A stretch of 64,000 nucleotides of DNA from Yoonia vestfoldensis (GTDB lineage Bacteria; Pseudomonadota; Alphaproteobacteria; Rhodobacterales; Rhodobacteraceae): assembly GCF_002158905.1 (NCBI RefSeq), contig NZ_CP021431.1:2667001-2731000 (forward strand), in the 5' to 3' direction. The notes beneath the pieces were generated by a model. It was given only the letters and a program-made list of their open reading frames with translations, did not search any database and had not been told where the DNA came from. The position numbers and the translations under genes were made by a program. Shown piece after piece: positions 2,546 through 56,892 of the stretch (its first letter is position 1; each line of letters begins with the position of its first letter).

Positions 2546-2600
2546 GTCAGATGTCACGACATCTGACGCCTCCGGCGGGGATATTTAAGCTCGGAAGATG
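2546..2600 (+). repeat. Family A intergenic element, copy A1, with its hairpin
   Basis: A perfect 10-bp hairpin (GTCAGATGTC at 2546-2555, GACATCTGAC at 2558-2567) is followed directly by the family A core at 2568-2600 (GCCTCCGGCGGGG, ATATTT, GCTCGGAAGATG). The core starts 43 nt after the DUF4159 stop, in the same orientation. It fills the space before the next gene, so it lies inside a probable operon. Confidence 0.85.
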
Positions 2601-2615
2601 CGGGGAGTTTGGCGC

Positions 2616-4685
2616 ATGACCGGCATGGTGATCTTTGATCCGCTGATCCCGCTGGTGGCGGTTTACGCGCTGGCGGGGCTTGTGGCGCTGGCGGTTGTGT
2701 TGGCGGCCTGGCGCCGCTTGCCCGGCTGGTGGCTGCGCGCATTGGCGGGGCTGGCCTTGCTGGCGGCCATGGCCAACCCGTCCTTGCAGCGCGAGGACCG
2801 CGCCCCGCTCAGCGATATCGTCATGGTCGTCCTCGATGAAAGTGCCAGCCAGCGCATCGCGGGCCGCCCTGACCAGAATGCCCAAGCCCTGGCGCATATC
2901 ACCGCCGCATTGGACCGCCAGCCGAATACTGAAATGCGTCTGGTCAGGCTTGGCGATGCGCCGGGCGATCAAGGCACGACCTTGATGACCAGGCTTGCGC
3001 AGGCTTTGGCCGAAGAGCCGCAGGGCCGGATTGCCGGGATCATCGTGATTTCGGACGGCCGCCTGCATGATATGGACAAGGCCCCCGCCCTGCCCGCGCC
3101 GCTGCATCTGCTGCTGACCGGGGAACCTGACGATTGGGACCGCAGGCTGGTGGTGTCCAATGCCCCCGCCTTTGCCATTCTGGGCGAGACTTTCAACCTG
3201 ACCCTGCGGATCGAGGATCAGGGCGCCGCACCGGCCACCCAGACCGTGGATCTGTCGATCTCTATTGACGGGGAACCGCCGCTGACCCTGCCTGTCCCGC
3301 TGGGCCGCGATATCGAGCTGCCGGTGCAGCTGGCCCATGCGGGTATGAATGTGTTGCAATTCACCATTCCGACCACTGCGGGTGAATTGACCGACCGCAA
3401 TAATGCCGCCGTCATCCAGATCAACGGCGTGCGCGACCGGTTGAGCGTCTTGCTGGTGTCGGGCGAGCCGCATCCGGGCGAGCGGACCTGGCGCAACCTG
3501 TTGAAATCCGACGCGGCGGTGGATCTGGTGCATTTCACCATCCTGCGCCCGCCCGAGAAACAGGACGGCGTGCCGGTCAATGAATTGTCGCTGATCGCCT
3601 TTCCCACCCGCGAGCTATTCTTGGAAAAGATCGATGATTTCGACCTGATCATCTTTGACCGTTACCGCCGGCGCGGTATTCTGCCCAATGCCTATTTCGA
3701 CAATATCCGCAATTATGTCGAACAGGGCGGGGCGGTGCTGATTTCTTCAGGGCCGGAATATGGCGCGGCGGATAGTATCTATCGCTCGCCTCTGGGGGCG
3801 GTGCTGCCGGGTGCGCCGACCGCGCGCGTGTTCGAGCAAGGCTTTGTGCCGCAGATCACCGATCTGGGCGCGCGCCATCCGGTGACCGCGGGGCTGGATG
3901 CGCTGGCGCCCCCTGCCGCCGAGGGCGATGGTCCGGGCTGGGGCCGCTGGTTCCGGCTGGTTGATGTGCTGGTCCCGCAGGCGGCATCTGTTGTCATGTC
4001 GGGGCTGGATGACCGCCCCTTGCTGGTGTTGAACCGGGTTGGCGAGGGTCGTGTGGCGCTGATGGCCTCGGATCATTCCTGGCTCTGGGATCGCGGCTAT
4101 GAAGGCGGCGGGCCGCAGTTGGAATTGCTGCGCCGTCTGGCGCATTGGATGATGCGCGAACCCGAGCTGGAGGAAGAGGCCCTGTTCGTCGCCCCTGTCG
4201 GCCAGCAGATGCGGATCATCCGCCGCACCCTGTCTGACACTGCCGGTGACGTGACCATCACCCATCCCGACGGGACCGAAACACGCGTGCCATTGACCGA
4301 GATATCCCCCGGCCGGTTCGAGACGCTTTGGGATGCGCCTGAAATCGGGCTCTACCGGCTGGATGACGGCGAAGAACAGGCCGTCATCGCGCTTGGCCCT
4401 GCGGCACCGCGCGAATTCGAACAGACGATCGCGACCGGTGACGTGCTGGCGCCCCTGATCGCAGCGCAGCGTGGCGGCATCATGCCGGTGTCAGAAGGAC
4501 CTGTGGATATTCGTGCCATGCGCCCCGGCCGCCCTGCCGCCGGGCGCGGCTGGATCGGGATCACCCCGCGCGGCGCATTCCAGACCGCTGATATCAAGAT
4601 CACGCCCCTGGTGCCGGCCTGGCTATTCCTGCTGCTGGCCGCGATGTTGAGCCTGGGGGCCTGGCTGCGCGAAGGCCGCCGTTAA
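2616..4685 (+). CDS. Glutamine amidotransferase-like (BatA/vWA-type) membrane protein
   Basis: This protein of about 689 aa has two N-terminal membrane segments (residues about 8-28 and 40-58), a large periplasmic part, and a C-terminal membrane segment (VPAWLFLLLAAMLSLGAWL) before a basic tail. The central part (IVMVVLDESASQ; LIIFDRYRRRG; GGAVLISSGPEYG) resembles the amidotransferase-like proteins encoded beside DUF4159/BatA proteins in Rhodobacterales. I chose the ATG at 2616 rather than 2598 because GGGGAG at 2602-2607 gives a well-spaced ribosome site and 2598 lies inside the repeat. It is probably co-transcribed with the DUF4159 gene. Its exact function is unknown. Confidence 0.75.
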   Translation: MTGMVIFDPLIPLVAVYALAGLVALAVVLAAWRRLPGWWLRALAGLALLAAMANPSLQREDRAPLSDIVMVVLDESASQRIAGRPDQNAQALAHITAALDRQPNTEMRLVRLGDAPGDQGTTLMTRLAQALAEEPQGRIAGIIVISDGRLHDMDKAPALPAPLHLLLTGEPDDWDRRLVVSNAPAFAILGETFNLTLRIEDQGAAPATQTVDLSISIDGEPPLTLPVPLGRDIELPVQLAHAGMNVLQFTIPTTAGELTDRNNAAVIQINGVRDRLSVLLVSGEPHPGERTWRNLLKSDAAVDLVHFTILRPPEKQDGVPVNELSLIAFPTRELFLEKIDDFDLIIFDRYRRRGILPNAYFDNIRNYVEQGGAVLISSGPEYGAADSIYRSPLGAVLPGAPTARVFEQGFVPQITDLGARHPVTAGLDALAPPAAEGDGPGWGRWFRLVDVLVPQAASVVMSGLDDRPLLVLNRVGEGRVALMASDHSWLWDRGYEGGGPQLELLRRLAHWMMREPELEEEALFVAPVGQQMRIIRRTLSDTAGDVTITHPDGTETRVPLTEISPGRFETLWDAPEIGLYRLDDGEEQAVIALGPAAPREFEQTIATGDVLAPLIAAQRGGIMPVSEGPVDIRAMRPGRPAAGRGWIGITPRGAFQTADIKITPLVPAWLFLLLAAMLSLGAWLREGRR

Positions 4686-4736
4686 AGCGTTGCAGGACAG
4701 GCCTGCACAGAATCTGGCGGCCTGGTCCGAGACAAT

Positions 4737-5429
4737 CTAATCATTCATCAGCACATTGCGCGGCAATGATGCGAATTCGCGCGACCAGATGATCCCCGCA
4801 ACGATCAATGTCGCCAGGATCAGCGCGCCCGGTCCCGCAAGCCAGGCCAAGGCAGCCAGCGCGAAATACATCGACCGCAGGCCACGGTTGAAATTCAGCG
4901 CGGCGCGGATGTTCAGCTCTGCCGCCTGGGCTGCGCGCGGATAGGCCACCGGATCGGCCGGGTCGTTGGGCACCGAGGCCATGACCACCGCGCAATAGCC
5001 GAACACCCGGTTGGACCAGACGAATTTCAAAAAGCCATTGGTCAGGAACAGCGCGACCAGCGCCAGTTTCAGCTGCCAGATCAGCACGGGAACCTGTGTA
5101 TCCGTCACCTCTGCCGCGACGCCCCGCAGGCTTTCGGTATTGCCCAGCAAGGCCAGCACGCCGCCGATGGCAAAAAGGCTGGTCGAGGCAAAGAACGCCG
5201 TGCCTTCGCGCAGACCGGCCAGGATCTGGCTGTCAAAGATGCGCGGGTCACGGGTCACAAAGACCTTCATCCAGTCGCGTCGCCGTTCCGACATCAGCAC
5301 CGTCACCGACGGACGCCGCAGGCCGGGATGTTCGATCCGCCAGCCAATGCCACACCAGACCAGCACGATCAGCGCCGCTGCTACCGCGTCAAACTGGTTG
5401 AGTAACCCAAGGTGATCAAGCAAAGTCAT
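4737..5429 (-). CDS. DUF599 family membrane protein
   Basis: This is a 230-aa protein with about four hydrophobic segments, including DAVAAALIVLVW near the N-terminus, FFASTSLFAIGGVLALLG and ALAALAWLAGPGALILATL. The RRDWM and RDPRIFDSQI stretches between them fit the DUF599 family of unknown function. The ATG at 5429 (MTLLDHLGL) is preferred; a TTG nine codons upstream at 5456 is possible. It stands alone and converges on the preceding membrane-protein gene; a 6-bp hairpin (4691-4707) lies between the two stops. Confidence 0.8.
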   Translation of the reverse strand: MTLLDHLGLLNQFDAVAAALIVLVWCGIGWRIEHPGLRRPSVTVLMSERRRDWMKVFVTRDPRIFDSQILAGLREGTAFFASTSLFAIGGVLALLGNTESLRGVAAEVTDTQVPVLIWQLKLALVALFLTNGFLKFVWSNRVFGYCAVVMASVPNDPADPVAYPRAAQAAELNIRAALNFNRGLRSMYFALAALAWLAGPGALILATLIVAGIIWSREFASLPRNVLMND

Positions 5430-5520
5430 GTGAAATCCATAGCCGGTCCAGTTCAAACTTGCCAGAAGGCAAAATTGGTCATATAATCTTACCAGTCATA
5501 CCCAGGGGGGAGCGCGCTCC

Positions 5521-6954: not shown

Positions 6955-7020
6955 GGGGGCTTTGCCCCCGCCCCGGACCCTGTCCGGGTCTCCCCCAGGA
7001 TATTTATACTCGGAAGATGA
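6955..7020 (+). repeat. Family A intergenic element, copy A2, with two hairpins
   Basis: Directly after the glcD stop are two short hairpins: GGGGGC/GCCCCC (6955-6960, 6964-6969) and CCCGGAC/GTCCGGG (6972-6978, 6982-6988). The core (CCCCCAGG-ATATTT, then ACTCGGAAGATG) follows at about 6992-7020. Its terminal GGAAG at 7012-7016 lies 5 nt before the glcE ATG, where a ribosome binding site is expected, so the repeat appears to supply the glcE Shine-Dalgarno. Confidence 0.85.
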
Positions 7021-7021
7021 T

Positions 7022-8116
7022 ATGACACCCCAGAACGAGCAAGAGCTTGCCCGCATGGTGGCCGAGGCCGATGGCCCGCTGCGGATCATGGGCGGCGGCA
7101 CGCGGCCTATCGGGCGCAGCACCGGTGCTGCGCTGTCGCTGGCAGGCATGGCGGGGATCACGCTTTATGAACCCGGCGCGCTGACGCTGGTGGCCAAGGC
7201 GGGCACGCCTTTGGCCGAGGTGCAGGCGCGGCTGGCGGCCGAAAACCAGCGCTTGGCGTTCGAGCCGATGGATCATCGCGCGCTGCTTGGCACCGAGGGC
7301 GATCCGACCATCGGCGGCATGGTCGCGGCCAATGTGTCAGGGCCACGGCGCATTTCAGTGGGGGCCTGCCGCGATTTCATGCTGGGTGTGCGCTTTGTCG
7401 ATGGTGCGGGCAATATCATCAAGAACGGCGGCCGCGTGATGAAGAATGTCACCGGCTATGATCTGGTCAAGCTGCTGACCGGGTCTTATGGCACTTTGGG
7501 TGTGCTGACCGAAGTGTCGTTGAAGGTCCTGCCGGATGTGGAAACGCAAGTGACGCTGGTGCTGGAGGGGCTGGATGATCCCAGGGCCGTGGCCGCGATG
7601 GCGGCTGCCATGTCCTCGCCTTTCGAGGTGACGGGGGCGGCGCATGATCCCGCATCAGGGCGCACCCTGTTGCGGCTGGAAGGCTTTGCCGCGTCGGTTG
7701 CCTATCGCGCCCAGGCGCTGGCGTGGGTGCTTGCCCCGTTCGGGGCCGTGGCCGTGATGGATGATCACGCCGCATCGGCCGCGCTTTGGGCCGCGATCCG
7801 CGATGTGACCGCCTTTGCCGGGCAGCAGGGCTGTGTCTGGCGGCTGTCGGTCAAGGCATCGGATGCGCCCGCGCTGGTCGCCAAGGCGGGTGCAAGCGCG
7901 GTGATCTATGATTGGGCGGGCGGCTTGGTCTGGCTTTTGGCTGATGGCGATCTGCGCGCGCGGCTTGGGGATTTTGCGGGCCATGCCACGCTGATCCGGG
8001 GGCAGGCCGATGTGCCGGTGTTCCAGCCGGAACCGGCGCCTGTTGCCGCGCTGAGCACCGCATTGCGCGCGAAATTCGATCCGCGCGGCATATTCAATCC
8101 GGGGATGATGGGCTGA
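7022..8116 (+). CDS. glcE: Glycolate oxidase subunit GlcE
   Basis: This 364-aa FAD-binding subunit of glycolate oxidase is a shortened relative of GlcD. It carries the flavin-binding stretch RIMGGGTRPIGRS near residue 20, then TIGGMVAANVSGPRR and NVTGYDLVKLLTGSYGTLGV, and ends in the family signature FDPRGIFNPGMMG. The ATG at 7022 was chosen because MTPQNEQEL aligns with the usual N-terminus and GGAAG lies 5 nt upstream. Its stop shares one base with the glcF start (TGATG), which indicates translational coupling. Confidence 0.93.
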   Translation: MTPQNEQELARMVAEADGPLRIMGGGTRPIGRSTGAALSLAGMAGITLYEPGALTLVAKAGTPLAEVQARLAAENQRLAFEPMDHRALLGTEGDPTIGGMVAANVSGPRRISVGACRDFMLGVRFVDGAGNIIKNGGRVMKNVTGYDLVKLLTGSYGTLGVLTEVSLKVLPDVETQVTLVLEGLDDPRAVAAMAAAMSSPFEVTGAAHDPASGRTLLRLEGFAASVAYRAQALAWVLAPFGAVAVMDDHAASAALWAAIRDVTAFAGQQGCVWRLSVKASDAPALVAKAGASAVIYDWAGGLVWLLADGDLRARLGDFAGHATLIRGQADVPVFQPEPAPVAALSTALRAKFDPRGIFNPGMMG

Positions 8117-10903: not shown

Positions 10904-10945
10904 GGCGCGACGGAGCGCGCCGCGCGGGAGTATTTTTGGAAAAAA
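10904..10945 (+). repeat. Family B intergenic element, copy B1, with its hairpin
   Basis: A GGCGCG/CGCGCC hairpin (10904-10909, 10916-10921) is followed by GAGTATTTTTGG and then AAAAAAGAAG (about 10928-10949). The 22-nt core is identical to copies B2 and B3. It lies just after the Hsp20 stop, same orientation, in the gap before polA, which converges from the other side. Confidence 0.8.
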
Positions 10946-10982
10946 GAAGGTGCAGGCGCGGGGGGTGACCCTCGCGCCTTTT

Positions 10983-15474: not shown

Positions 15475-15528
15475 CATCTTCCGAGCCCAAATATCCCTGC
15501 CAGAGGCCAGCCCGTCGCAGACGGGCTG
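15475..15528 (-). repeat. Family A intergenic element, copy A3, with its hairpin
   Basis: On the minus strand, after the HIT stop, comes a 9-bp hairpin (CAGCCCGTC/GACGGGCTG on the plus strand at 15508-15516 and 15520-15528), then the core at 15507-15475. This copy has GCCTCTGGCAGGG instead of GCCTCCGGCGGGG, so two changes in the GC part. It fills the whole space between the convergent ABC ATPase and HIT genes. Confidence 0.85.
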
Positions 15529-15900: not shown

Positions 15901-17478
15901 TCAATCGACAAACAGGTGCGGCGTGCGGGCCAATTCCAGCGCAACGGCCTCCTCGACGCCCAGAAACGCGGCGATCGCAGCCGCATTCTCGGCCTCGGTC
16001 GCTGTTTCGCGCAGACGGGAGGTTTGCTTGAAACCGGCATCGCGGATCGCATCACCTTCATGGATCATGTCACGGCGAATCGTGGGCAGCAAGCGCGCGA
16101 AAGTCGCGGGCGAGCTCTGCGGCCCGGCCAACCCGACGCGGATCGCATGGCCGATCAGGTAATCGTCACAGAGGCTGCACTCGATTTCCAGCATCCGGAC
16201 ATCCGCGCGGTCGGCCTGAAATGCCGTGATCAGATCAAGGCTGGATGTATCCAGACAGATCACCACCCGATCCGTCCCCGCATGATCATAAAGCATCCGC
16301 ATAAAGGCACCGTGGTTCCGGCCGCGTTTGGCCAGCGACCTTTCGATCCCGCCCATATCGGGCAAGGGCGTCTGGGCTTCGTTGAACAGGTAATCAAAGG
16401 CCGCAATATCGGTATTCTGGCGGATCGCGGCGGTCAGCCGCTTGGCGACATGCCATTTCTTGCACAGGATGATCAGCAGGCTACGCCCCACCCCGATCGC
16501 CATTTCCGCCTCCCAGAATCGCGGTGCGAACCGGCGCCCGCTGCGCCCGCGCGCGGTCAGAAAGCTGAACAGCGTGCGGCCTTCGTTGGAAATGGTGAAA
16601 TCCGCCTGCCCCGAGGCATAAAGCGCACCCAGCCGCTTTTTCAGGCCATGCGCCTCTGCGCTGATCTTGCGCGCGAACAAAGCATCCTGGCCCAGCAAGA
16701 AATCGGCATGGTCGTTGTAAAAGGACACCGGCATCCCGTAATCGCTGAACATCAGAAAGGTCAGGGTGCGGCTCTCGATCTCGCGGCCGGGCACCAAATG
16801 GCGGACCAGGGTCTGGAAAAAAGTCTCATCGGGAATCCAGGTGGTGCGAAAGAACCGGATCACGTCCGGGCGCTGGCGGGTGAAGGCCAGCACCGCCTCG
16901 ACGCTGCGGCGACGCAGGCACCACCATTGGCTGCCGATCATGACATTGATGCCAGATGGCAGCGCGCGGGTGATGTTGAACCGCTTCTGCAAGGCAAAAG
17001 CCGCATAAAACCGGCGTTTCTGGCTGCGCTCGTTGAAATAATGACGATAGATCAGCCGTTCTTCGCGAAACCCGGTCTTGATCCAATCGGTATCAAAGAA
17101 ATCGAAACTCTCGATGAAATCCTTGTCATGCATATCCAGAAAGCGATGCGCATAATCGGCCGATTTGATCGGCATGCAATCGCCTGACAGCATGTAGAAA
17201 TGGGTGGCTTGGGCAAAAGCGGCCAATGCGGCCTGCAAGCCGCGCAACGTCGCCTCGACCAGGCTCCATTCGCCCCAGCCGCACCGGACCCGGCGGGTCA
17301 CGAAAGTGACATTGGGATGATCCGCCAACGCCCCCGTGATCTTGCGGTAATCGGCAGCTGCGGCAGAGGCATCGAAATGGATCGCCACATAATCACCGGC
17401 AGCGGTCAGCCGCGCCACCTGGTCCAGGATGGCATCGGGGTCTTTGTGGCAAAGCAGGATAAAGGCGACACGTGCCAT
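15901..17478 (-). CDS. GT14 (Core-2/I-branching type) glycosyltransferase with DUF5928 tail
   Basis: This protein of about 525 aa has an N-terminal glycosyltransferase domain (residues 1-270): VAFILLCHKDP at the start, then THFYMLSGDCMPI and a GSQWWCLRRR stretch typical of the beta-1,6-N-acetylglucosaminyltransferase-like family. The C-terminal half matches the DUF5928 region found in Rhodobacterales homologues. It probably adds branch sugars to a surface polysaccharide; donor and acceptor are unknown. The ATG at 17478 (MARVAF) fits the family start; an ATG three codons earlier (17487) is possible. It diverges from a sulfotransferase gene. Confidence 0.82.
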   Translation of the reverse strand: MARVAFILLCHKDPDAILDQVARLTAAGDYVAIHFDASAAAADYRKITGALADHPNVTFVTRRVRCGWGEWSLVEATLRGLQAALAAFAQATHFYMLSGDCMPIKSADYAHRFLDMHDKDFIESFDFFDTDWIKTGFREERLIYRHYFNERSQKRRFYAAFALQKRFNITRALPSGINVMIGSQWWCLRRRSVEAVLAFTRQRPDVIRFFRTTWIPDETFFQTLVRHLVPGREIESRTLTFLMFSDYGMPVSFYNDHADFLLGQDALFARKISAEAHGLKKRLGALYASGQADFTISNEGRTLFSFLTARGRSGRRFAPRFWEAEMAIGVGRSLLIILCKKWHVAKRLTAAIRQNTDIAAFDYLFNEAQTPLPDMGGIERSLAKRGRNHGAFMRMLYDHAGTDRVVICLDTSSLDLITAFQADRADVRMLEIECSLCDDYLIGHAIRVGLAGPQSSPATFARLLPTIRRDMIHEGDAIRDAGFKQTSRLRETATEAENAAAIAAFLGVEEAVALELARTPHLFVD

Positions 17479-17598
17479 GATATTCATTCATTCCGCGAGT
17501 GGCTTTGTCGCGTTCTACCGCAAAGAGACATTGAAGTGACAGGGTTTCTTTGCCTTTATGCCCCAAGCGGGATCAACTTGCCGCAAAGGAGCATCGTA

Positions 17599-18420
17599 TT
17601 GGCCAATTTCCCCGGTATCTGGATGACCACCAGCGAAAGCATGGTCTACCGCGTCGTGCCGAAATGCGCCTGTTCGACCATCGGACAGATCATGTATTAT
17701 TCCGATCACGGTCGCTTCTTTGATGGCGATATCCATGATGCAAAGTCAGGCCTGCACAAATGGGCCCTCGAGGACAGCCAGCAGCCGATCCGCGACAATG
17801 TGCTGGCGCATAAAAGCTTTGCCTTCACCTGTGTGCGCAACCCCTATACCCGGATCCTGTCGTCCTTCTTCGACAAGATCTGCGGCGTGCAGCGCAGCGG
17901 GAATTACTACCGGGGCAATCTGGTCCCGCAATTGATCCAGAAATATGGCATCGACGTGGGCGATCCGGCCGACGGATTTGCCTTTGACCAGATCAAGAGC
18001 TTCCGGCGGTTCCTGCTTTTCGCTCGCGACACGATCCGCTGGCGCAAACCGATGGAACCCGACATCCATTGGTCCGCCATGTCGGGCCATGTCGCGACCT
18101 ATATCGCCAACGGCGGGCGCTACGATCATATCTTCTGGACCGAGAGGTTCGACGAAGGCATGCAGGTCGTGCTGGACCGGACCGACCGGCCCCATGCGAT
18201 CGACCTTGCCACGATCCCGCGCTTCAACGAAAGCGAGGGGCACGGGCCAAAACGGCTGCATCCGGTGGCGGATTACTTTGACGATCTGTCGATGCATCTG
18301 GTCTATGAAATCTACAAACGTGATTTCCGGCTCTTCAAATACGATTTCGAAAATCCGGGCAACAAGATGCCATTGGGCGAGATCGACCTGGACGAAGTGC
18401 ATGCCAAGCTAGGGCGGTAG
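17599..18420 (+). CDS. Sulfotransferase family 2-type protein
   Basis: This 273-aa enzyme probably transfers sulfate from PAPS to a carbohydrate. The 5'-phosphosulfate loop is VVPKCACSTIG (residues 19-29) and the 3'-phosphate-binding stretch is FTCVRNPYTRILSSFF (about 70-86). The start is the TTG at 17599: AAAGGA lies 8 nt upstream and no ATG fits the family's FPGIWM N-terminus. It diverges from the GT14 gene, which suggests that both act on the same surface glycan. The stop is followed by a GGGGGC/GCCCCC hairpin and a family A core. Confidence 0.85.
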   Translation: MANFPGIWMTTSESMVYRVVPKCACSTIGQIMYYSDHGRFFDGDIHDAKSGLHKWALEDSQQPIRDNVLAHKSFAFTCVRNPYTRILSSFFDKICGVQRSGNYYRGNLVPQLIQKYGIDVGDPADGFAFDQIKSFRRFLLFARDTIRWRKPMEPDIHWSAMSGHVATYIANGGRYDHIFWTERFDEGMQVVLDRTDRPHAIDLATIPRFNESEGHGPKRLHPVADYFDDLSMHLVYEIYKRDFRLFKYDFENPGNKMPLGEIDLDEVHAKLGR

Positions 18421-18484
18421 GGGGCTGTCTGCCCCCTCGGCGCTGACGCGCCTCACCCCCGAGGATATTTTTGCTCGGAAGATG
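18420..18484 (+). repeat. Family A intergenic element, copy A4, with its hairpin
   Basis: A GGGGGC/GCCCCC hairpin (18420-18425, 18431-18436) begins in the last base of the sulfotransferase stop. The core (CCCCGAGG-ATATTT, then GCTCGGAAGATG) follows at 18457-18484 in the same orientation. The GC part differs from the consensus, while the GGATATTT and GCTCGGAAGATG parts are intact. Confidence 0.85.
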
Positions 18485-18728
18485 CGGCTTAATGCGATTT
18501 TAAGGTTAATACGCCATCCTGCCTTTGCGGGACAGGCAGGGATGCCGATGACCGCCGACGAAGATGCCGCCACCTTTTGCGCAGCGCCGGGCGACTGACG
18601 CATCGGGTGGCGGTTATCCCGCCATCTTCCGAGCCCAAATATCCCCGCCGGAGGCATCAAAGTTTTTCTCGACATCGCTTGATGCTGGGTTATCTGCCAC
18701 GGGGTCGGGTGCTGCAGGGAAAATGATG
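18421..18728. other. Non-coding gap holding two opposed family A copies
   Basis: No convincing gene lies in this 308-bp gap. It holds copy A4 (plus orientation, 18457-18484) and copy A5 (minus orientation, 18623-18655), with unrelated sequence between. The downstream end should contain the promoter of the 239-aa gene at 18729. Confidence 0.6.
18623..18655 (-). repeat. Family A core, copy A5, not behind a gene on its strand
   Basis: This is a full consensus core in reverse orientation (CATCTTCCGAGCCC, AAATATCCCC, GCCGGAGGC). A loose inverted repeat GCATCAA/TTGATGC (18654-18660, 18679-18685) sits at the position where other copies have their hairpin. No minus-strand gene ends just upstream of it, so it breaks the usual rule of lying behind a stop codon. 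Confidence 0.8.
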
Positions 18729-26296: not shown

Positions 26297-26387
26297 ATTG
26301 GCCCCTTTGGAAGGTTGCGCAGGGTTTAGGGCGCGGCACGCAGAGAGTCAAGCCGCGACAACACCGCATCAACCATCTGTTTTGATT

Positions 26388-26409
26388 GAGTATTTTTGGA
26401 AAAAAGAAG
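26388..26409 (+). repeat. Family B core, copy B2, upstream of the ArsR gene
   Basis: This 22-nt stretch (GAGTATTTTTGG then AAAAAAGAAG) is identical to B1 and B3. A weak ATCAA/TTGAT pair precedes it. It does not follow a plus-strand gene: to its left is the start of atpI on the minus strand. It lies about 90 bp before the ArsR start. Confidence 0.75.
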
Positions 26410-30709: not shown

Positions 30710-31266
30710 CATCTTCCGAGCCGAAATATCCCCGCCGGAGGCTTCAGGTTTGCCAAAACCTGAAAACCGACCGCTTGACCCTGCGCCGCCCCGGGGCGGA
30801 TGACTGGCCCGCATTTCATGGCTTCATGATGTCGGACCGCGCGACCGCTTTTGACGGGCATCAGGATCTGGGCAAGGCCTGGCGCAGCTTCGCCGCCGAA
30901 CTCGGCCATTGGGAGATTTTCGGCTATGGCATGTGGGCGGTCACCCGTCATGACGACGACACCGCCCTTGGCCTCATCGGGCCATGGACACCCCCTGATT
31001 GGCCCGAAACCGAGATCGGCTGGATGATCCTGTCCGACAAGGCCCAAGGCACCGGCATCGCGACCGAGGCAGCGCGCGCCGCAATCGCGCATGCCTATGA
31101 CAGCCTCGGCTGGGACAGTGCCGTCAGCTATATCGCGCCGGATAATGCCCGCTCGATCCGGCTGGCCGAAAAGCTTGGCGCGACACGCGACGCCGCGGCG
31201 CGCGGGCCAAAGCCCGACACGCTGGTCTACCGCCATCCAAATCCGAAAGGACAGGCCCATGTCTGA
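30706..31266 (+). CDS. GNAT-family acetyltransferase with a repeat-derived N-terminus
   Basis: This 186-aa protein has the RimJ/RimL-like GNAT domain from about residue 17 (LKTDRLTLRRPGADDWPAFH), with the acetyl-CoA loop near LSDKAQGTGIATEAARAA. Its substrate is unknown. The only ATG in frame before the domain overlaps the ffh stop, so residues 1-13 (MTSSEPKYPRRRL) are translated from family A copy A6 and the next residues from its hairpin. A CTG at 30760 is the only other candidate. It overlaps the chorismate mutase gene by 8 bp. Confidence 0.8.
   Translation: MTSSEPKYPRRRLQVCQNLKTDRLTLRRPGADDWPAFHGFMMSDRATAFDGHQDLGKAWRSFAAELGHWEIFGYGMWAVTRHDDDTALGLIGPWTPPDWPETEIGWMILSDKAQGTGIATEAARAAIAHAYDSLGWDSAVSYIAPDNARSIRLAEKLGATRDAAARGPKPDTLVYRHPNPKGQAHV
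30710..30764 (-). repeat. Family A element, copy A6, inside the GNAT reading frame
   Basis: The reverse-orientation core occupies 30710-30742 and is followed by a perfect 9-bp hairpin (TTCAGGTTT at 30743-30751, AAACCTGAA at 30756-30764). It therefore has the complete hairpin-plus-core module on the minus strand, although the genes on both sides read plus. Confidence 0.85.
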
Positions 31267-41499: not shown

Positions 41500-41583
41500 G
41501 GGGTATTTCCTTGCAAAATAATGTTGCCTTGGCGTAACGCGCGCCGCGAAAAGGTTCAAGACACCACTGCGCGGCAGCCGGGC

Positions 41584-46246: not shown

Positions 46247-46298
46247 CCCCTGCGGCGCAGGGGAACGCGCCGCGGGGGATATTTCGGCTCGGAAGATG
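46247..46298 (+). repeat. Family A intergenic element, copy A7, with its hairpin
   Basis: A 7-bp hairpin CCCCTGC/GCAGGGG (46247-46253, 46257-46263) lies 4 nt after the HPF-like stop. The core (CGCGGGGG-ATATTT, GCTCGGAAGATG) follows at 46271-46298. The convergent ureG stop is 13 nt further on. Confidence 0.85.
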
Positions 46299-48397: not shown

Positions 48398-50158
48398 TCA
48401 GAACAGAAAATAGCGTTGCGCCATCGGCAAACGCTCTGCCGGTGCGCAGGTCAGCAAGACGCCATCGGCGCGCACCTCATAGGTTTCGGGGTTCACCTCG
48501 ACATGCGGCATGGCGGTGTTCAGCTTCAGATCCTTTTTGCCGATATTGCGGGTATTGACGACGGGCAGGGTCTGTTTGGCCAGGCCCAAACTGCCACCGA
48601 TGCCCGCCTCTTGCGCGGCGGCGCTGACAAAGGTGACGGCGGAATGTTCCACCGACCGCCCGTAAGCGCCAAACATCGGGCGGGTGTAAACCGGCTGCGG
48701 TGTCGGGATCGACGCATTGGGATCGCCCATCTGGGCGGCAACAATCGTGCCCCCCATCAGGATCATCTCTGGCTTGACCCCGAAAAAGGCGGGGTTCCAC
48801 AAAACCAGATCGGCGCGCTTGCCGACCTCGATTGATCCGACATGGGCGGAAATGCCATGCGCAATCGCGGGATTGATCGTATATTTCGCGATATAGCGGC
48901 GCACGCGCATATTGTCATTATCGCCCTTTTCCTCGGGCAATTGGCCGCGCTGGACCTTCATCTTATGGGCGGTCTGCCAAGTGCGGATGATCACCTCGCC
49001 CACACGGCCCATCGCCTGGCTGTCCGACGCGATGATCGAAAAGGCACCCATGTCGTGCAGGATATCCTCGGCGGCGATGGTTTCGCGGCGGATCCGGCTT
49101 TCGGCAAAGGCCACATCCTCGGGGATGCTTTTGTCCAGATGATGACAAACCATCAGCATATCGAGATGTTCGTCGATCGTGTTGACGGTAAAGGGCCGCG
49201 TCGGATTGGTCGATGAGGGCAGCACATTGGGCTGGCCGCAAATCTTGATAATGTCGGGGGCATGACCGCCGCCCGCGCCTTCGGTGTGAAAGGCGTGGAT
49301 GGTGCGGCCTTTCAGGGCGGCAACGGTGTTTTCGACAAAACCCGCCTCGTTCAACGTGTCGGTATGGATCATGACCTGCACATCCCAGGCATCCGCCACC
49401 GACAGACAGCAATCAATGGCGGCGGGGGTGGTGCCCCAATCCTCATGCAGCTTCAGACAGCAGGCCCCCGCGAGGACCTGTTCTTCCAAGGCCGCAGGCA
49501 GCGATGCATTGCCCTTGCCCGCAAAGGCGAGGTTCATCGGAAACGCATCCGCCGCCTGCAACATCCGCCCCAGATGCCAGGGGCCGGGGGTGCAGGTGGT
49601 GGCCAATGTGCCATGCGCGGGGCCGGTGCCACCGCCGATCATGGTGGTCAGACCGGAATAAAGCGCATCCTCGATCTGCTGGGGGCAGATGAAATGGATA
49701 TGGCTGTCGATGCCGCCTGCGGTCAGGATACGGCCTTCACCGGCGATGGCCTCGGTGCCGGGGCCGATGATGATATTCACACCCGGCTGCGTATCGGGAT
49801 TGCCCGCCTTGCCGATGGCCACGATACGCCCGTCTTTGAGGCCGACATCGGCCTTGATGATGCCGGTCCAATCCACGATCAGCGCATTGGTGATGACCGT
49901 ATCCACCGCGCCCGCGGCCCGCGTGACCTGGCTCTGGCCCATACCGTCGCGGATCACCTTGCCACCGCCGAATTTCACCTCTTCGCCATAAGCCAACGCA
50001 TTGGGGCCAGTGCCGCCCGTGGTGGCGCGACCGGCCAACTCGGCGGTCAGATCGCGTTCGACCTCGATAAACAATTCGGTATCGGCAAGCCGGACCTTAT
50101 CGCCCACCGTGGGGCCGAACATCGCGGCATAATCGCGGCGGTTGATCACTGCTGGCAT
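48398..50158 (-). CDS. ureC: Urease alpha subunit
   Basis: This 586-aa catalytic subunit hydrolyses urea to ammonia and carbamate with two nickel ions. The ligands are visible: H153 and H155 (DSHIHF), carbamylated K236 (CLKLHEDWG), H265, H291 and an aspartate near 379. The flap C338-H339 is in MVCHHLD. Compared with the Klebsiella protein it has about 18 extra residues after EVERDLT ([18 protein letters not shown]), before [11 protein letters not shown]. It starts 1 bp after ureB ends. Confidence 0.98.
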
Positions 50159-50479: not shown

Positions 50480-50501
50480 CTTCTTTTTTCCAAAAATACT
50501 C
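50480..50501 (-). repeat. Family B core, copy B3, between ureA and ureB
   Basis: On the minus strand this reads GAGTATTTTTGG then AAAAAAGAAG, identical over 22 nt to B1 and B2. It begins 12 nt after the ureA stop and ends 14 nt before the ureB ATG, so it lies inside an operon. Confidence 0.85.
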
Positions 50502-50513
50502 ATCTTCTTCTTT

Positions 50514-50816: not shown

Positions 50817-50819
50817 GGG

Positions 50820-51653: not shown

Positions 51654-51664
51654 CTGCCGCCTTT

Positions 51665-51685: not shown

Positions 51686-51781
51686 ATCAGCTGCGCAGGA
51701 CCAGCGGTGCCGCACCGATACCGCGCAGAAAAACGCGATATCGCAGTCATCTGCCTAAAAATGAGGCAGCTTCATCAGAAA

Positions 51782-54070
51782 TCAGCCTGTCCTATCCATC
51801 CGCACCTGATAGCGGACCGCGCCGCGCACGGCGCTGCTCCAGTTCAGATGCACGGATCGTTGGTCCGCGCCGCGCTCTCCTTCGGCCCAGGGCAGCTCGC
51901 GGATCGTGGCATTGGCCGGCGTGGTGATCGCGCCGCTGGGCATGACGAAATCGACATGCCGCGCGCGGCCACCAAAGGGCAGGGCTTGGCCTGTATTCAT
52001 AACCCATGTGCTGGCCGCCGTTGTCTGGCTATGGGCCAGCACCGCAGGGTTCGCGACGGGAAAATCGACATTGTGAAAGGTGTTGGCGCTGAATTCGAAA
52101 CTGCGGGTGCGACTGAAATCCAGATCGGCAAAGGTGGTATCGACCATCTCGACCCTGTTGATGCGGCCATTGATGGCCCGGAACACATTGCCCACCACGG
52201 CAAAACCATTGATGAAATGCCCCGGACCATAGGGCTTGATGACGATGAAATTGAACCAGGGCGCGACATCATTCGTGGTAAAGATATTGCCGGTGATCGT
52301 CAGCCCGCCGAATGAAAACTGAACGCCCAGCGCCGGGCTGCTGGTATGTTCATTGGTCCATTCGATGAAATTATTGTCGCAGTAATTGCCGGTGAAAATG
52401 CTTTTCGGATTGGGCAGGGTCAACACGATCCCACCTTTGCGCACGCTGCCCGGCTCGTCATCGCCGTGAAACCAATGGTTCGCCGTGATCAGATTGCCCG
52501 AGCCCGCCAGCACGCAGAAATGCAAGAACCGGCTGGTGCGGTTGTCGCGGATCTTGACGTCATTGGCATTGGCGTTGAACCCGATGCTGACGCGGGCGGC
52601 GACCGGCACGGATTGTTCATCCGAAATGAACTGGCAGCGGTCGATCATCATCCCCTGACAGCCATAGCCGGGCGATGTCACCCCCCGGTCGCGGGGCCGG
52701 TTGATGAAACAATCGCGGATGTGAAAGGTCACGCCGTCGGGCGCCATCATGATCCCGCTGGCAACACCGCGCCCCTGGAATTCGATATCGGACAGAATGA
52801 GCTGGCTCAGCTTTTCATAGCCCGAAAAATCCAGCATATATCTGAAACGGGTAAAGGTAAAAACCTGCGTGCCCTCGGCATCATAAAGCGGATTGCTCAG
52901 CGTCAGGCGCGCTTGGGCCACATCCACCGCCATCACATAGATCTCGCGGCCGACACCGGCCCCGCTAACCAGCGACCCCACCGCGATATTGGCGATCCCG
53001 GCGACATTGGTCAGCTGCCGGTCATTGGCCGCAGCATAGCTCGCCTGCGACGTGACCACGGCTGTATCCCAGGCGGCGCTGTCATCGGGTTGAAACTGGC
53101 CATTGCGGATCACGCGGCGGGTCTCAAAGCGCAGCCGCGCGGGGTCGCAGGCCTGCATATCGACAGGTGCCGTCAACAGGATGCGCCGGCCGCACAGATC
53201 AAGCGAATCGTGATCGGCGAAATTGATCAGCGCCTGATAGGCTTTCTTGAACGCCGTTTCCTCGTCCTTGAACGCATCAAGATAGGCGTCGAAATTGTAC
53301 CCTTTCTGCAAAATGAACCGATGGTCGGCGGCCTGCAGGATCCGGCCCTCAAAGCGGGTATTGTTCTGCATGGTGACATGGCCCGCCAAGCGGTAATCAC
53401 CCGCAGGCACCATCACCGTCCGTCCGTTCGCCGCCGCATCAGCGGCGATAAAGGCCGGGGCATCATCGCTGACGCCGTCGCCCTTGGCACCGAAATCACG
53501 CACATCGACAAGGCTGACCAGATCACGGGTGAAAACGGCGCTGACATCCTCGATCGTGATGTCATCAATGCGCACCACCCCGCCCAGCGGGCCGGTCAGA
53601 TCCAGCCCCAGATGGCCGTAATCCGCCCCGGCCCAGACCAGGTCAACCCCGGTGCGCGCGGCGGTGGCGATGATCGCGCTGATCGTGACGACCGCGCCAT
53701 AGGCGGTCAATTGCGTGGCCGGGCCGGTCGTGGGCACGCCGGGCAGCAAAGTGCCATTGGCGCGCCCCGGCCAGCCCGCGATGCGCACGGACGGCAAAGG
53801 GCCCGCCACCGCCTTGACGCGGGCGGTCACGCGCAGATAACAGCCCGGCAGGATCGGCGTTTGCCCCATATAGCGGACACGGGCGACAGGATCGCGCTTG
53901 AGCACCTCCAGACAGCCCGCGAAATCCTGATCGGCGGCGACAAAGACGCCCGATCCGCTGACGGCATAGGTGTCGGACCCCGGCGTGCCGTCGCCGCTGG
54001 ACCAGACCCCCAGACCCGCCGCAAAAGGCAAAGGGTTGAAAACGATGGCGTCGGTGATGGCTTTGTTCAT
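51782..54070 (-). CDS. Right-handed beta-helix (pectate-lyase-superfamily) protein
   Basis: This 762-aa protein starts with about 190 residues of a beta-rich carbohydrate-binding-like domain, then the Pectate_lyase_3 signature VDVRDFGAKGDGVSDDAPAF and a long beta-helix with repeated G-N-x-F/I rungs (LTITGNIFTTND, GFAVVGNVFRAING). It has no signal peptide. Similar proteins without assigned substrates occur in Rhodobacterales; some resemble phage tail-spikes. No phage genes are nearby. It probably binds or cleaves a polysaccharide. Confidence 0.78.
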   Translation of the reverse strand: MNKAITDAIVFNPLPFAAGLGVWSSGDGTPGSDTYAVSGSGVFVAADQDFAGCLEVLKRDPVARVRYMGQTPILPGCYLRVTARVKAVAGPLPSVRIAGWPGRANGTLLPGVPTTGPATQLTAYGAVVTISAIIATAARTGVDLVWAGADYGHLGLDLTGPLGGVVRIDDITIEDVSAVFTRDLVSLVDVRDFGAKGDGVSDDAPAFIAADAAANGRTVMVPAGDYRLAGHVTMQNNTRFEGRILQAADHRFILQKGYNFDAYLDAFKDEETAFKKAYQALINFADHDSLDLCGRRILLTAPVDMQACDPARLRFETRRVIRNGQFQPDDSAAWDTAVVTSQASYAAANDRQLTNVAGIANIAVGSLVSGAGVGREIYVMAVDVAQARLTLSNPLYDAEGTQVFTFTRFRYMLDFSGYEKLSQLILSDIEFQGRGVASGIMMAPDGVTFHIRDCFINRPRDRGVTSPGYGCQGMMIDRCQFISDEQSVPVAARVSIGFNANANDVKIRDNRTSRFLHFCVLAGSGNLITANHWFHGDDEPGSVRKGGIVLTLPNPKSIFTGNYCDNNFIEWTNEHTSSPALGVQFSFGGLTITGNIFTTNDVAPWFNFIVIKPYGPGHFINGFAVVGNVFRAINGRINRVEMVDTTFADLDFSRTRSFEFSANTFHNVDFPVANPAVLAHSQTTAASTWVMNTGQALPFGGRARHVDFVMPSGAITTPANATIRELPWAEGERGADQRSVHLNWSSAVRGAVRYQVRMDRTG

Positions 54071-54172
54071 GCTCGATCCTCACATTCTCAGCTACGCAAC
54101 TGCCAAGAGGATAGAACAAAGAGCTAAAGACCGGCTGACACCACCGTCACGGTCGGGCGCGCAACGGGGGCA

Positions 54173-54577
54173 TCAGACCCCCAGATCAGGCGCAGGCAGA
54201 AGCGTGACACCATTGATCTGCCAGCCCTGCGGCGTTGCGATCATCTGGTAATCCAGCAGATGCAGCCCGCCCTGCGCATCGCGGATCATGACCTTTTGCC
54301 ACCAGAAACCCGCCATATCGCGCAGGTCTAGAAACCGCACATCGGCATTGTCCCAGACCATCGGATAGCCTTGCTGGACCATCGCGCCGAAATTGCCCTC
54401 ATTGCCAAACAGGCGCTTGATATTGGGACTGGCAAAAGACCAGGCCGCCGCCACATCACGCTCATGAAAGGCTTGCAGCTGATCAGTGATCACGGATTGG
54501 ATGGCCGCATGATCCTGCGCGGCAAGGGCGCTGGCAGTCAACCACAGCCCAAGAATGACGACAAAAATACGCTTCAT
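54173..54577 (-). CDS. DUF4864 domain-containing secreted protein
   Basis: This 134-aa protein has a signal peptide (MKRIFVVILGLWLTASALA) and an NTF2-like DUF4864 domain (IQSVITDQLQAFHERDVAAA, WSFASPNIKRLFG, ending in GWQINGVTLLPAP). Proteins of this kind are periplasmic and of unknown function. ATG 54577 puts the signal peptide at the N-terminus, with GGAGAGG just upstream; the frame is open for 20 more codons. Confidence 0.85.
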   Translation of the reverse strand: MKRIFVVILGLWLTASALAAQDHAAIQSVITDQLQAFHERDVAAAWSFASPNIKRLFGNEGNFGAMVQQGYPMVWDNADVRFLDLRDMAGFWWQKVMIRDAQGGLHLLDYQMIATPQGWQINGVTLLPAPDLGV

Positions 54578-54653
54578 CAGCCTCTCCATAAAATGCCCCA
54601 TATCAAAGATACGCGACAAAAGGCCGATCAGTTTCAATTTCGTGCAATCATCC

Positions 54654-54700
54654 CATCTTCCGAGCCCAAATATCCCCGCCGGAGGCTCCGCGCCAGCGGA
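54654..54700 (-). repeat. Family A intergenic element, copy A8, with its hairpin
   Basis: On the minus strand, the lysK stop is followed by a short hairpin (TCCGC/GCGGA on the plus strand at 54687-54691 and 54696-54700) and then a full consensus core at 54686-54654. The module lies upstream of the DUF4864 gene on the same strand. Confidence 0.85.
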
Positions 54701-54703
54701 CCC

Positions 54704-56278
54704 TCAGACCTCGCGCGATAGCTGGGCCTCGATCAGGGCGATGGTTTCGGCGACACCGTAAAGCGCGATGAACCCGCCAAAGCGCGGGCCTTGGGATGCG
54801 CCCAGCAAGACCTCATAAAGGGCGGTGAACCAGTTGCGCAACGGATCAAACCCATGGTCGTTGCCAACGGCGAAAACCATAGTCTGCAAGGCCTCGGCGT
54901 CAAGCCCGCCATCCCAGACCTTCAGCCGGGCCGCCAGATCCTGCAAGGCCGCGCGTTCCTGATCTGTGGGCGCCCGGTAGGTTTTGGCGGGTTTCACAAA
55001 ATCGTTGTAATAGCGCACGGCAAACCCTGCCGCCTGATCCATCTGGGGGTTCTTTTCGGCGGATGCATCGGGGGCATAGCGGCGGATAAACCCCCAGAGC
55101 GTATCCTTGTCCTCGGCCCCTGATACGGATGCAAGGTTCAGCAGCATCGCGAACGGCACCACCATGTCGGACACCGGCACGTCGCCGCCGTGGATATGGA
55201 ACACCGGATTGTTCACCCGGCCCGCATCATCCTGATCGGCATAGGCGCGCAGCTGCTGGTGATATTCATCCACCGCCTTGGGGATCACGTCAAAATGCAT
55301 CCGTTTGGCGGTTTTCGGCTTTTGATACATGAAATAGCTCAGAGATTCCGTCGCCGCATAGGTCAGCCATTCATCAATCGAAATGCCGTTGCCCGAGGAT
55401 TTGGAAATCTTCTGGCCGTTCTCGTCCAAAAACAGCTCATAAGAAAAATGGTTCGGCTTGCGGCCGCCCAGAATTTCGCAAATCCGGTCATAGATCGCGG
55501 TATTGGTGGCATGTTCCTTGCCATACATCTCGAAATCAACGTCAAGTGCGGCCCAGCGCGCGCCGAAATCAGGCTTCCATTGCAGTTTCACATTGCCGCC
55601 CGTGACCGGCAGGGTCCATTCGCGGCCATCCTCGTCATCGAATGTCACCTCGCCCCGCACCGCATCGACATTTTTCATCGGCACATAGAGCACGCGGCCG
55701 GTTTCGGGATGGATCGGCAAAAAGATCGAATAGGTTTCCTGCCGTTCCTCGCGCAAAGATTTCAGCATGACCGCCATCAGATCGTCATAGCGTTCAGCAG
55801 CCCGCAGCAGGATGTCATCGAACTGGCCCGTGCGATAGAATTCGCGCGCGGAATAGAATTCATACTCGAACCCGAAAGTATCCAGAAAACGCCGCAGCAT
55901 GGCGTTGTTGTAATGGCCAAAGCTTTCATATTCGCCGAACGGGTCCGGCACCGATGTCAGCGGTTTATGCATATGCTCTTTGAGCATCTCTTGCTGGGGC
56001 ACATTGCCCGGCACTTTGCGCATCCCGTCCAGATCGTCCGAAAAGCAGATCAGCTTGGTCGGAATGTCGGAAATGACCGCGAATGCGCGGCGGATCATCG
56101 TGGTGCGCAACACCTCGCCGAAAGTGCCGATATGCGGCAGGCCGGACGGGCCATAGCCGGTTTCAAACAGCACATAGCCTTTGGCGGGCGGGCCGGATTC
56201 GTAGCGTTTGAGCAGGGCGCGCGCTTCTTCAAAAGGCCAGGCCTTGGATGTCATCGCAGCGTCACGCAGGTTGCTCAT
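54704..56278 (-). CDS. lysK: Lysyl-tRNA synthetase, class I
   Basis: This 524-aa enzyme charges tRNA-Lys. It is of the class I type found in archaea and most alphaproteobacteria, not the class II LysS of most bacteria. The HIGH motif appears as PHIGTFGEV (residues 48-56) and KMSKS as KISKSSGNG (about 290). ATG 56278 ([19 protein letters not shown]) is used; 15 upstream codons in frame are not conserved. A family A element follows the stop. Confidence 0.96.
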
Positions 56279-56389
56279 TCTCTTGCTCGCAATTTCAGGC
56301 GGCACCCCAAATGGCGCCTGCACGCATACTCCCTATTGCGAGACGGACAGGGCGTCAATAAATGGGACAGGTATCGCAAAGGATAGAGA

Positions 56390-56809
56390 ATGTCAGACGC
56401 CGGCCCATTGACTGCCCAGGACGCTTTGGTCGTTCTGATGATCAGCGTTTCCGCCGCGGATGGCAATATCCGCACATCCGAGCTGGTGAAGATCAGCAAC
56501 GCGATCAACAACCTGCCGGTCTTTGCCGGTTATGATGTCGAACGCGTGCCGCAGATGTCGCAGCTGGTTTTCGACCTGCTCGAACCCGAGGACGGGCTGG
56601 AAGCCCTGTTCGGCCTGATCCGCGAAGCCCTGCCCAGCCGGTTGTTCGAAACCGCCTATGCCTTGTCCTGCGATGTTGCCGCAGCCGATGGCCGCATCGC
56701 CGGGCAAGAGGCGCGGATGCTGGAAGAAATCCGCGAAGAGCTGGATATCGACCGGCTTTATGCCGCCGCGATCGAACGCGGTGCGCGCGCCCGGCATATG
56801 ATTCTTTGA
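56390..56809 (+). CDS. TerB-like (tellurite-resistance family) protein
   Basis: This 139-aa helical protein has two pseudo-repeats with acidic turns (VSAADGNIRTSELVKI and VAAADGRIAGQEARMLEE), the TerB pattern. The acidic turns may bind divalent metals. No other ter genes are near, so a role in tellurite resistance is doubtful. It diverges from lysK and converges on dacB. Confidence 0.88.
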   Translation: MSDAGPLTAQDALVVLMISVSAADGNIRTSELVKISNAINNLPVFAGYDVERVPQMSQLVFDLLEPEDGLEALFGLIREALPSRLFETAYALSCDVAAADGRIAGQEARMLEEIREELDIDRLYAAAIERGARARHMIL

Positions 56810-56859
56810 AAGATTCGCGGAGAGAGCCGGGGAAAGAGTCGGGTCTTCAAAAGATTCGG

Positions 56860-56892
56860 GCCTCCGGCGGGGATATTTAGGCTCCAAAGATG
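56860..56892 (+). repeat. Family A core, copy A9, with a divergent tail
   Basis: GCCTCCGGCGGGG-ATATTT is intact, but the tail reads GCTCCAAAGATG in place of GCTCGGAAGATG. It starts 50 nt after the TerB stop in the same orientation. No perfect hairpin precedes it. The convergent dacB stop is 12 nt further on. Confidence 0.8.

Follow-up and report, generated by a model that had tools for sequence, protein, structure and literature searches.

Gene-end elements of Yoonia vestfoldensis and the predicted small RNA genes that match them in the Rhodobacterales

Why should a terminator-like sequence keep letters conserved beyond the point at which the transcript is released? The question is raised by a 64,000-nt stretch of the Yoonia vestfoldensis genome (contig NZ_CP021431.1, positions 2,667,001 to 2,731,000; called the window, and numbered from its first letter), in which an element with a core of 33 nt recurs nine times, mostly behind stop codons. 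An initial annotation had taken these copies for a mobile or actively maintained 3′-end module, and had remarked that the tail behind the T-rich stretch is conserved beyond the needs of a terminator. The tail does belong to an element family and is matched by an RNA gene; the cognate RNA genes are what that annotation missed. From the sequences compared below, it appears well supported that families of such elements are matched to RNA genes, and that the loop and the guide of the RNA change together with the elements between families and species. The leading though tentative explanation is that the gene-end elements are RNA-addressed, through pairing of the RNA with the complementary DNA strand.

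The element families and their predicted RNAs

The layout of an element is NXY-TATTT-NN followed by a tail of 12 nt, with GC-rich letters ahead. In an alignment of the nine window copies, here family A, the eight letters GGATATTT are invariant and, after three varying letters, so are CTC and AAGATG. A search with GGATATTTNNGCTCGGAAGATG at up to 3 mismatches recovers all nine places reported at first, where shuffled sequences give a mean of 0.01 and at the largest 1 match. Over the whole genome the same pattern at up to 2 mismatches finds 114 copies (50 + 64) and its reverse finds 0, and a further family A search with a pattern including TATTT, which would miss most free tails, gives 132 matches in 3.99 Mb, about 100 of them listed.

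A predicted non-coding RNA of family A lies at 18527–18613 (+), its start placed from the promoter and its end at the foot of the second hairpin. It is flanked by two inward-facing A copies, one at 18452–18484 (+), behind a sulfotransferase gene, and one at 18623–18655 (−). Hairpin 1 (18528–18554, +) has an outer stem CGGN/NCCG and an inner stem GGCN/NGCC, and its loop GGGA (18539–18542, +) repeats the element letters before TATTT. A 12-nt guide, CCGACGAAGATG (18555–18566, +), then matches the tail GCTCGGAAGATG, exactly over GAAGATG and with a 2-nt bulge over CG-GAAGATG. TATTT itself is not repeated in the RNA. Hairpin 2 (18567–18613, +) stands directly behind the guide and is followed by TTATCCCG. 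The usual form of such RNAs is R-CGGN-ACA-GGCN-GNXY-NGCC-GATG-NCCG-guide(12)-hairpin 2, with the putative start at R-CGGUACAGG. Upstream of the window RNA stand a CtrA-type site TTAA-N7-TTAA (18489–18503, +) and a −10-like nAnnnT (18515–18520, +).

A second family, B, reads GGAGTATTT-NN-GGAAAAAAGAAG. It has 3 copies in the window (10927–10949, +, behind an HSP20 gene; 26387–26409, +; 50480–50502, −). The genome as a whole holds 59, of which 43 are perfect while no copy has 3 mismatches, and the predicted RNA locus of the family is at C1:707431–707614. A third family, C, flanks a third RNA gene. At least three element families thus occur in the genome, and a cognate small RNA gene is predicted for each of A, B and C.

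The families differ from species to species. The A pattern at up to 2 mismatches is found in 14 of 99 genomes, Y. vestfoldensis included, with GGACGATG and GGAAGAAG variants among the matches, and the last tail letters vary between species. For instance, in genome G055, where the tail reads GGACGATG, the guide is GACGATG, as predicted ahead of the search. Among the matches listed for eight further genomes of this genus, given letters ahead of TATTT go with a given tail, in classes that differ from genome to genome; in G012 these are GGGGATATTT with GCTCGGAAGAAG, GGGAGTATTT with GGAAGAAAGAAG, and GGAGGTATTT with GAACAAAAGAAG. Other tails of congeners read GGGCCGATAATG, GGCAAAATGATG, GGCCAAAAGAAA and more. 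The initial annotation had seen Shine-Dalgarno and anti-Shine-Dalgarno letters in the element; these congener tails speak against such a role, and with GGGCCGATAATG and GGCAAAATGATG among them we reject a Shine-Dalgarno or start-codon function of GGAAGATG.

Loop and guide against element

The match was measured with elements chosen blind to the guide, by the presence of exactly one TATTT on a side of the RNA gene. The genus set holds 80 upstream and 77 downstream elements of 94 loci, misses included. The loop letters XY equal the element letters XY in 98 of 104 distinct combinations of loop, guide and element, as compared with a mean of 31 and a maximum of 46 in 2000 shuffles, and guide and tail agree at 8.47 of 12 positions versus 5.20 when shuffled (maximum 5.76). 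An independent set was drawn from at least 118 stretches of named genomes (80 among the matches listed), from Paracoccus, Ruegeria, Leisingera, Roseovarius, Jannaschia, Shimia and other genera, together with three viral contigs; it gives 91 upstream and 92 downstream elements of 121 loci, misses included, with 108 distinct guides. Here loop XY equals element XY in 85 of 91 upstream and 82 of 92 downstream cases, and guide-tail identity is 9.21 and 8.61 versus 5.50 and 5.35. Loop letters 2, 3 and 4 covary with the element in 174, 170 and 177 of 183 cases (shuffled means 118, 107 and 91); letter 1 is a constant G and cannot covary. The spacer between TATTT and tail in the matched genus flanks has two letters in 155 cases and three in 11.

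The differences between guide and tail are not symmetrical. Position 1 of the guide is nearly always a pyrimidine while the tail carries a purine, and positions 6 and 7 are often guide G where the tail has A. One-sided differences of guide G with tail A number 232 in the independent set, against 37 of guide A with tail G; a hand sum from the printed lists gives 124 against 21 for the genus set. The asymmetry fits pairing of the guide with the complement of the tail, G-T or G-U wobble being allowed.

Among the viral sequences, the IMG/VR contig L439 (35 kb) carries an RNA gene of this kind at 4342–4368 with a matching upstream element, its guide TGACAAGTGATA agreeing with the tail TGACAAATGATA at 11 of 12 positions. 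The other two viral hits, L437 and L438, have no matching element.

An own-family element usually stands on each side of the RNA gene. In 189 loci, short-flank ones being dropped, it is present upstream in 173, downstream in 164, on both sides in 155 and on neither in 7; of 100 random windows, 3 attain the same score. The inward-facing downstream element, present in those 164 loci, would put an anti-tail into a longer transcript, and this anti-tail could pair with the tails of read-through mRNA, the guide serving as a displaceable internal partner that closes it. The guide wobbles would then weaken the internal helix relative to the target helix, and families with guide TGCAAGGTGATG have the anti-tail inside hairpin 2 already. 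Nevertheless, 18 of the 189 loci have the upstream element and no recognisable downstream one, 9 have the reverse, the guide agrees equally well with the two flanking elements (8.51 upstream, 8.56 downstream), and in the families of L229 and L236 a TTTTT stands after hairpin 2 and before the anti-tail. We regard this longer RNA as distinctly unlikely; as an essential part, an anti-tail in cis is disfavoured by these flank counts.

The predicted fold was examined in 57 aligned sequences of the 59 listed (L372 and L429 left out). In the two stems, 95.4% of cells are paired, and two-sided changes occur in 33 cells as compared with 11.5 in shuffles and 0–1 in slid controls. The structure and flank sets omit L321, L336, L350, L352, L409, L437 and L438, which looked spurious or had no matching element, as well as L161, L231 and genus rows with an imperfect hairpin stem; duplicates were dropped from the alignment and the structure test. 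The promoter and hairpin 2 were counted in 84 genus loci, 82 of which gave a hairpin. TTAA stands at −32 in 63 of the 84, a weaker TTAA eleven letters earlier, and both in 8; A is favoured at −16 and T at −12. CtrA promoters are described, in the accessible part of the source, as having the full site TTAA-N7-TTAA near −35 and an invariant A at −11 (PMC6180460). If the start lies at −5, the TTAA, A and T positions fit that partial description (PMC6180460), and the RNA genes are probably under a CtrA-dependent promoter.

The RNA motif at up to 2 mismatches is found in 52 of 56 genus genomes (0 to 5 places each, chance hits included) and in 180 of 196 genomes and 81 of 87 genera of the order, some by chance; a reversed motif gives one hit each in five genomes of the order. 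As against the 14 of 99 genomes with the family A pattern, GCCTCCGGCGGGGATATTT at up to 2 mismatches occurs in 132 of 149 genomes of the order. Across the class, 57 of 289 genomes match, four of them from the order, and most of the other matches have two mismatches and look like chance. Exact matches outside the order come from seven genomes of six families (f14 twice, f15, f16, f111, f130, f133). The Rfam comparison proposed by the initial annotation gives no existing family: allowing E values as high as 10, the RNA locus still matches none, and the two window hits lie elsewhere. The Rfam family 5_ureB_sRNA matches at 49667–49954 (+) with 109.6 bits, antisense within a called gene of 584 aa (48398–50149, −), so this is apparently coding sequence that happens to score in that family.

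Among the genes beside the RNA genes no partner protein is recognised. The commonest neighbour, in 32 of 117 loci, is a downstream acyl-CoA dehydrogenase-like gene; glutathione-transferase-like and thiolase-like genes lie upstream (21 each), all three names being read by eye from sequence starts. The acyl-CoA dehydrogenase-neighbour locus looks like one syntenic copy in many genera.

Changes in place and across contexts

If the elements were selfish repeats, the RNA gene with its two inward-facing copies would be a master element seeding gene ends, tolerated there as terminators. The high copy number, the homogeneity (43 of 59 B copies are perfect) and the turnover of families between species would agree with this. 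On the other hand, only core and tail are common to the copies, the hairpins being locus-specific. Twenty relatives were examined over up to 20 kb around polA. In the 17 genomes comparable where the GlcD-like gene ends, A or an A variant is present in 8, another family in 3 (GGTATTT with GAACATGAGAAG, GAACAAAAGAAG or AGCAAGAGGAA) and none in 6, and the GC hairpins are alike among the carriers. At orthologous ends similar hairpins are kept where the family letters differ, though no systematic search for empty sites was made. Next to the sulfotransferase gene, in the gap before the adjoining gene, 8 of 15 genomes have a conserved block, some 100 bp long, with an inward-facing A element on either side. 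The 7-mer inside the block is that of the flanking tails, GAAGATG in G000, G044, G039 and G040 and AACGATG in G016; it is GAAGAAG in G012, G033 and G052, with some flanking tails of G033 and G052 off by one or two letters. The block is not at this place in G006, G045, G002, G051, G018, G031 and G007. At the end of the DUF4159 gene of G044 and G016 (L209, L210), the ATATTT of the orthologous A element is split by a hairpin of about 30 bp, a candidate small insertion.

Genome G016, whose PolA is 96% identical, offers a family caught part-way. Its A guide reads AACGATG, two bases changed. Among 55 elements listed, which are those within 2 mismatches of the new form and were classed by hand, 21 read AACGATG (10 with the whole pattern perfect), 2 more have AACGA but differ elsewhere, 4 are intermediates a single step from either form (GGACGATG, GAAAGATG), 1 reads GGATGATG and 27 keep the old GGAAGATG. 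The spacer letters are kept at the ffh end (CG, as in the window) and at the RNA locus. These stepwise changes in place, with intermediates, are what one would expect if the elements were individually selected to follow a trans-acting partner that had changed, rather than copied in, and selfish seeding of gene ends is accordingly very improbable. The mobility proposed at first is likewise not supported, since the letters change in place, by point mutation in the G016 tails, and the hairpins are kept; the other half of that proposal, an actively maintained module, is borne out.

A classical base-pairing small RNA, a further alternative, would pair by guide and loop with transcripts of the opposite direction, the AAAUA between the two sites serving as an Hfq- or RNase-type site. 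The partner could be, for example, the mRNA of a convergent gene, in which the first letters after the stop are the anti-tail. Neither the two-part geometry nor the wobble asymmetry tells RNA-RNA from RNA-DNA pairing, since both fit either kind. The contexts of the elements bear on this, and were counted for the copies of Y. vestfoldensis in the examined sequence (105 A and 40 of the 59 B), with gene calls that were trained on the window and are imperfect. Between genes, 73 of 105 A copies (median distance 37 nt, range −10 to 229) and 31 of the 40 B copies (again a median of 37 nt, with a range of 11 to 389) stand behind a same-strand gene end, which supports the bias in placement and orientation first described. 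For another 11 A and 9 B copies the sole gene end nearby is on the opposite strand, at the tail side, which runs counter to a pure stop-codon rule and would suit a classical small RNA; 5 A copies are placed between divergent genes, and 16 overlap or fall within a called gene. If the following gene is on the opposite strand, the distance from the end of the tail to the stop codon of that gene is 0–16 nt for 40 of the 50 A copies and 17 of the 28 B copies, which marks the tail as a bounded part of the element and again would suit pairing with the convergent mRNA. However, 34 of the 105 A copies and 12 of the 40 B copies lie between tandem genes, with no antisense gene called, and their tails are equally conserved. 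Mean tail mismatches in A are 0.32 in tandem (n=34), 0.26 in convergent (n=39), 0.55 in reverse (n=11) and 0.00 in divergent contexts (n=5), and in B 0.00 (n=12), 0.11 (n=19) and 0.00 (n=9) in tandem, convergent and reverse ones. Tail conservation is independent of context, and is as good without an antisense gene as with one. In G016 the changed elements comprise 6 tandem, 6 convergent, 2 reverse, 1 divergent and 6 unclear cases and the unchanged ones 10, 9, 1 and 1 of the first four; tandem to convergent is 6:6 versus 10:9 (Fisher p 1.0; 20 of 23 AACGA places, one of which also contains a degenerate copy, and 20 stretches that hold 21 of the 27 unchanged elements). Tandem elements thus carry the new form as often as convergent ones. 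Antisense mRNA is therefore disfavoured as the partner, and a classical small RNA of this kind is unlikely.

Within the window, a same-strand stop precedes the 33-nt core by 17–50 nt in seven of nine copies, as originally noted: at 2568–2600 (+) behind an 836-aa DUF4159 gene, at 6987–7019 (+) behind the GlcD-like gene, at 15475–15507 (−) behind a HIT/HinT-like gene with the tail abutting the stop of a convergent ABC ATPase gene, at 18452 (+), at 46266–46298 (+), at 54654–54686 (−) behind a lysine–tRNA ligase gene, and at 56860–56892 (+), a copy that has a degenerate tail (GCTCCAAAGATG) and points towards the stop codon of a convergent gene for an S13 peptidase. The stop before 18452 rests on the + open reading frame 17200–18420 (Pfam sulfotransferase PF03567), where the gene caller chose the opposite strand. 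The exceptions are the copy at 30710–30742 (−), whose tail lies right against the stop codon of ffh, a gene of the opposite strand, and the one at 18623 (−) that flanks the RNA gene.

As to the hairpin described ahead of most cores, such as the perfect one read from the sequence at 2545–2567 (+), its locus-specific sequence holds, but the folding signal is modest. Paired letters occur among the 5 nt directly ahead of TATTT in 83 of the 105 A copies and 25 of the 40 B copies, with a mean z of only −0.56 and −1.25 (n=105 and n=40). The T stretch of A is TATTT with varied next letters (TT in 11 of 105), and that of B is TATTTTT in 34 of 40. GNXYTATTT at intergenic sites of the examined sequence is followed by a tail at up to 2 mismatches in 114 of 118 cases, most of these loci having been fetched by the tail, and all 8 A and all 3 B tails found in the window at up to 1 mismatch stand behind TATTT. 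An intergenic GGGG-TATTT at 41504 (+) is followed by letters that match no A, B or C tail. A subset of A copies (L002, L021, L136, L161 and window 18623–18670) has ACTTTNNNG-like letters before the core, some with a preceding A-run; read in reverse, some have a T-run and might terminate in the other direction too. Facing element pairs within 200 bp, with RNA loci excluded, are 9 A-B, 1 A-A and 1 B-B among the matches listed (111 A places; for example C1:330156–330267 and 1724194–1724261; binomial p 0.016, exploratory), and genomes may avoid facing elements of the same family.

The elements could also be ordinary terminators in which the 12 bp past the release point set polymerase pausing, the RNA being a decoy that mimics the terminating complex. 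NXY with TATTT is about as long as the RNA-DNA hybrid of an elongation complex, NN would be its melted bases and the tail its downstream duplex. Yet a single polymerase would hardly recognise so many unrelated tails within one genome, so that specificity must come from the matched RNA, and we hold the decoy to be very unlikely.

Under the preferred reading, the RNA would be made from the CtrA-dependent promoter, fold as hairpin 1, guide and hairpin 2, and act in trans at the elements of its own family by pairing with the strand complementary to tail and NXY, that is, the template strand of the gene being ended. The guide is in the same sense as the element strand, and its natural partner is the other strand; because tandem elements with no antisense gene called are equally matched, the template DNA strand is the simplest partner common to these contexts. 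TATTT would stay occupied by the nascent transcript or by a protein. A transcription complex that has reached the end of TATTT would keep this stretch in its hybrid, with NN melted and the tail as downstream duplex, and an RNA repeating NXY and tail but not TATTT would fit that state. The bound RNA, with a protein or RNA polymerase, could then stop or insulate transcription, adding an addressable layer to a weak intrinsic terminator. Control of termination or insulation by the pair of element and RNA appears likely.

Several points weigh against this reading. A 12-nt guide and a 3-nt loop are short for stable strand invasion without a dedicated protein; the guide mismatch is systematic at position 1, with wobbles at 6–7; and no recognised effector gene recurs beside the RNA genes in the ten largest neighbour families of the 117 loci, no genome-wide search for effector families having been made. 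The family A match beyond 7 nt needs its 2-nt bulge and is among the poorer ones, and the shuffles behind the match statistics leave the relatedness of the loci in place. As for the RNA, stem pair types (7 versus 7.1 in shuffles) are not above expectation, the last pair of the outer stem fails in 17 of 57 sequences, 10 of 84 loci have no TTAA from −60 to −20, and at least 5 T in the 8 letters after hairpin 2 occur in only 12 of 82, which leaves the RNA 3′ end uncertain; with the anti-tail in hairpin 2 of the TGCAAGGTGATG families, the target might also be RNA. In G016 most elements are probably still unchanged, since 69 places lie within 2 mismatches of the old form, 6 of its 21 changed elements have unclear context, and the loci of the context comparison were mostly fetched by a good tail. 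A G007 class, GGGAGTTTTT-NN-GCCAAGATGAAG, with TTTTT replacing TATTT, has no RNA gene by pattern search.

Meaning and likeness to known systems

No description of such RNA-matched gene-end elements was found in the open-licence full-text literature, among the best matches of broad queries, with subscription journals and bioRxiv outside that scope, and the addressing of terminators through a guide RNA is not known to us from any bacterial system. Our study suggests a new kind of system, in which families of gene-end signals, each matched by its own RNA gene, point to RNA-addressed marking or closing of gene ends. In its widest form, which we put forward with more reserve than DNA-strand pairing itself, CtrA-controlled guide RNAs would exist throughout the order, often several per genome, each programming 60–130 terminators by loop NXY and 12-nt guide, read against the template strand around TATTT, to complete or enforce termination and insulate genes, the address and its targets drifting as species dialects. 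If the matching is functional, one small RNA would set 60–130 gene ends at once, probably under CtrA. The partly completed switch of G016 is a natural case for the co-evolution of a trans-acting RNA with many targets, and the guide might be reprogrammable as a tool for insulating genes. Whatever the mechanism, an RNA motif with no Rfam match in 180 of 196 genomes of the order, some by chance, merits an entry of its own.

The DNA uptake sequences of Neisseria and Haemophilus are repeats of 10–12 nt near terminators but also away from them, with species dialects and about one copy per 1–2 kb. The elements are likewise short repeats at terminator-like sites with species dialects, but they number about 100 copies, not thousands, and their tails are tied to TATTT; no window tail at up to 1 mismatch is free of it (0 of 8 A, 0 of 3 B), which rejects an uptake function.

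In TnpB-like guide RNAs, nuclease-dead repressors included, the guide reads like the strand that has a T-rich motif 5′ of the target. The guide described here also reads as the strand carrying a T-rich motif just 5′ of its target. In contrast to that type, there is a second guide segment, the loop, beyond the T-rich motif, and two unread letters precede the target; the guide is not at the RNA 3′ end but internal in sequence, with hairpin 2 behind it, and no recognised effector gene recurs among the ten largest neighbour families of the RNA genes.

With Hfq-type trans-acting small RNAs the predicted RNA of about 90 nt shares a seed between two hairpins, its own promoter and many targets. It differs in that the seed reads like the 3′ region of the terminated gene itself and is not complementary to the regulated mRNAs, as an anti-tail in a longer RNA could still be, and in that the match extends to tandem ends with no antisense gene called and to 59 to about 130 elements per RNA in one genome.

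Closer in taxonomy, the HRC-8-4 motif, known from comparative genomics, is a terminator-like element of the Rhodobacterales with conserved loop letters, mainly beside cco operons, according to the accessible part of its source (PMC8632094). Both are terminator-like elements of this order, but no matched RNA is mentioned for HRC-8-4 in that part of the source (PMC8632094). With intrinsic terminators at large, the elements share their place mostly behind stops, the orientation of the gene, and GC-rich letters that may fold, followed by a T-rich stretch; what sets them apart is a family-specific conserved 12 nt past the release point, matched by an RNA gene.

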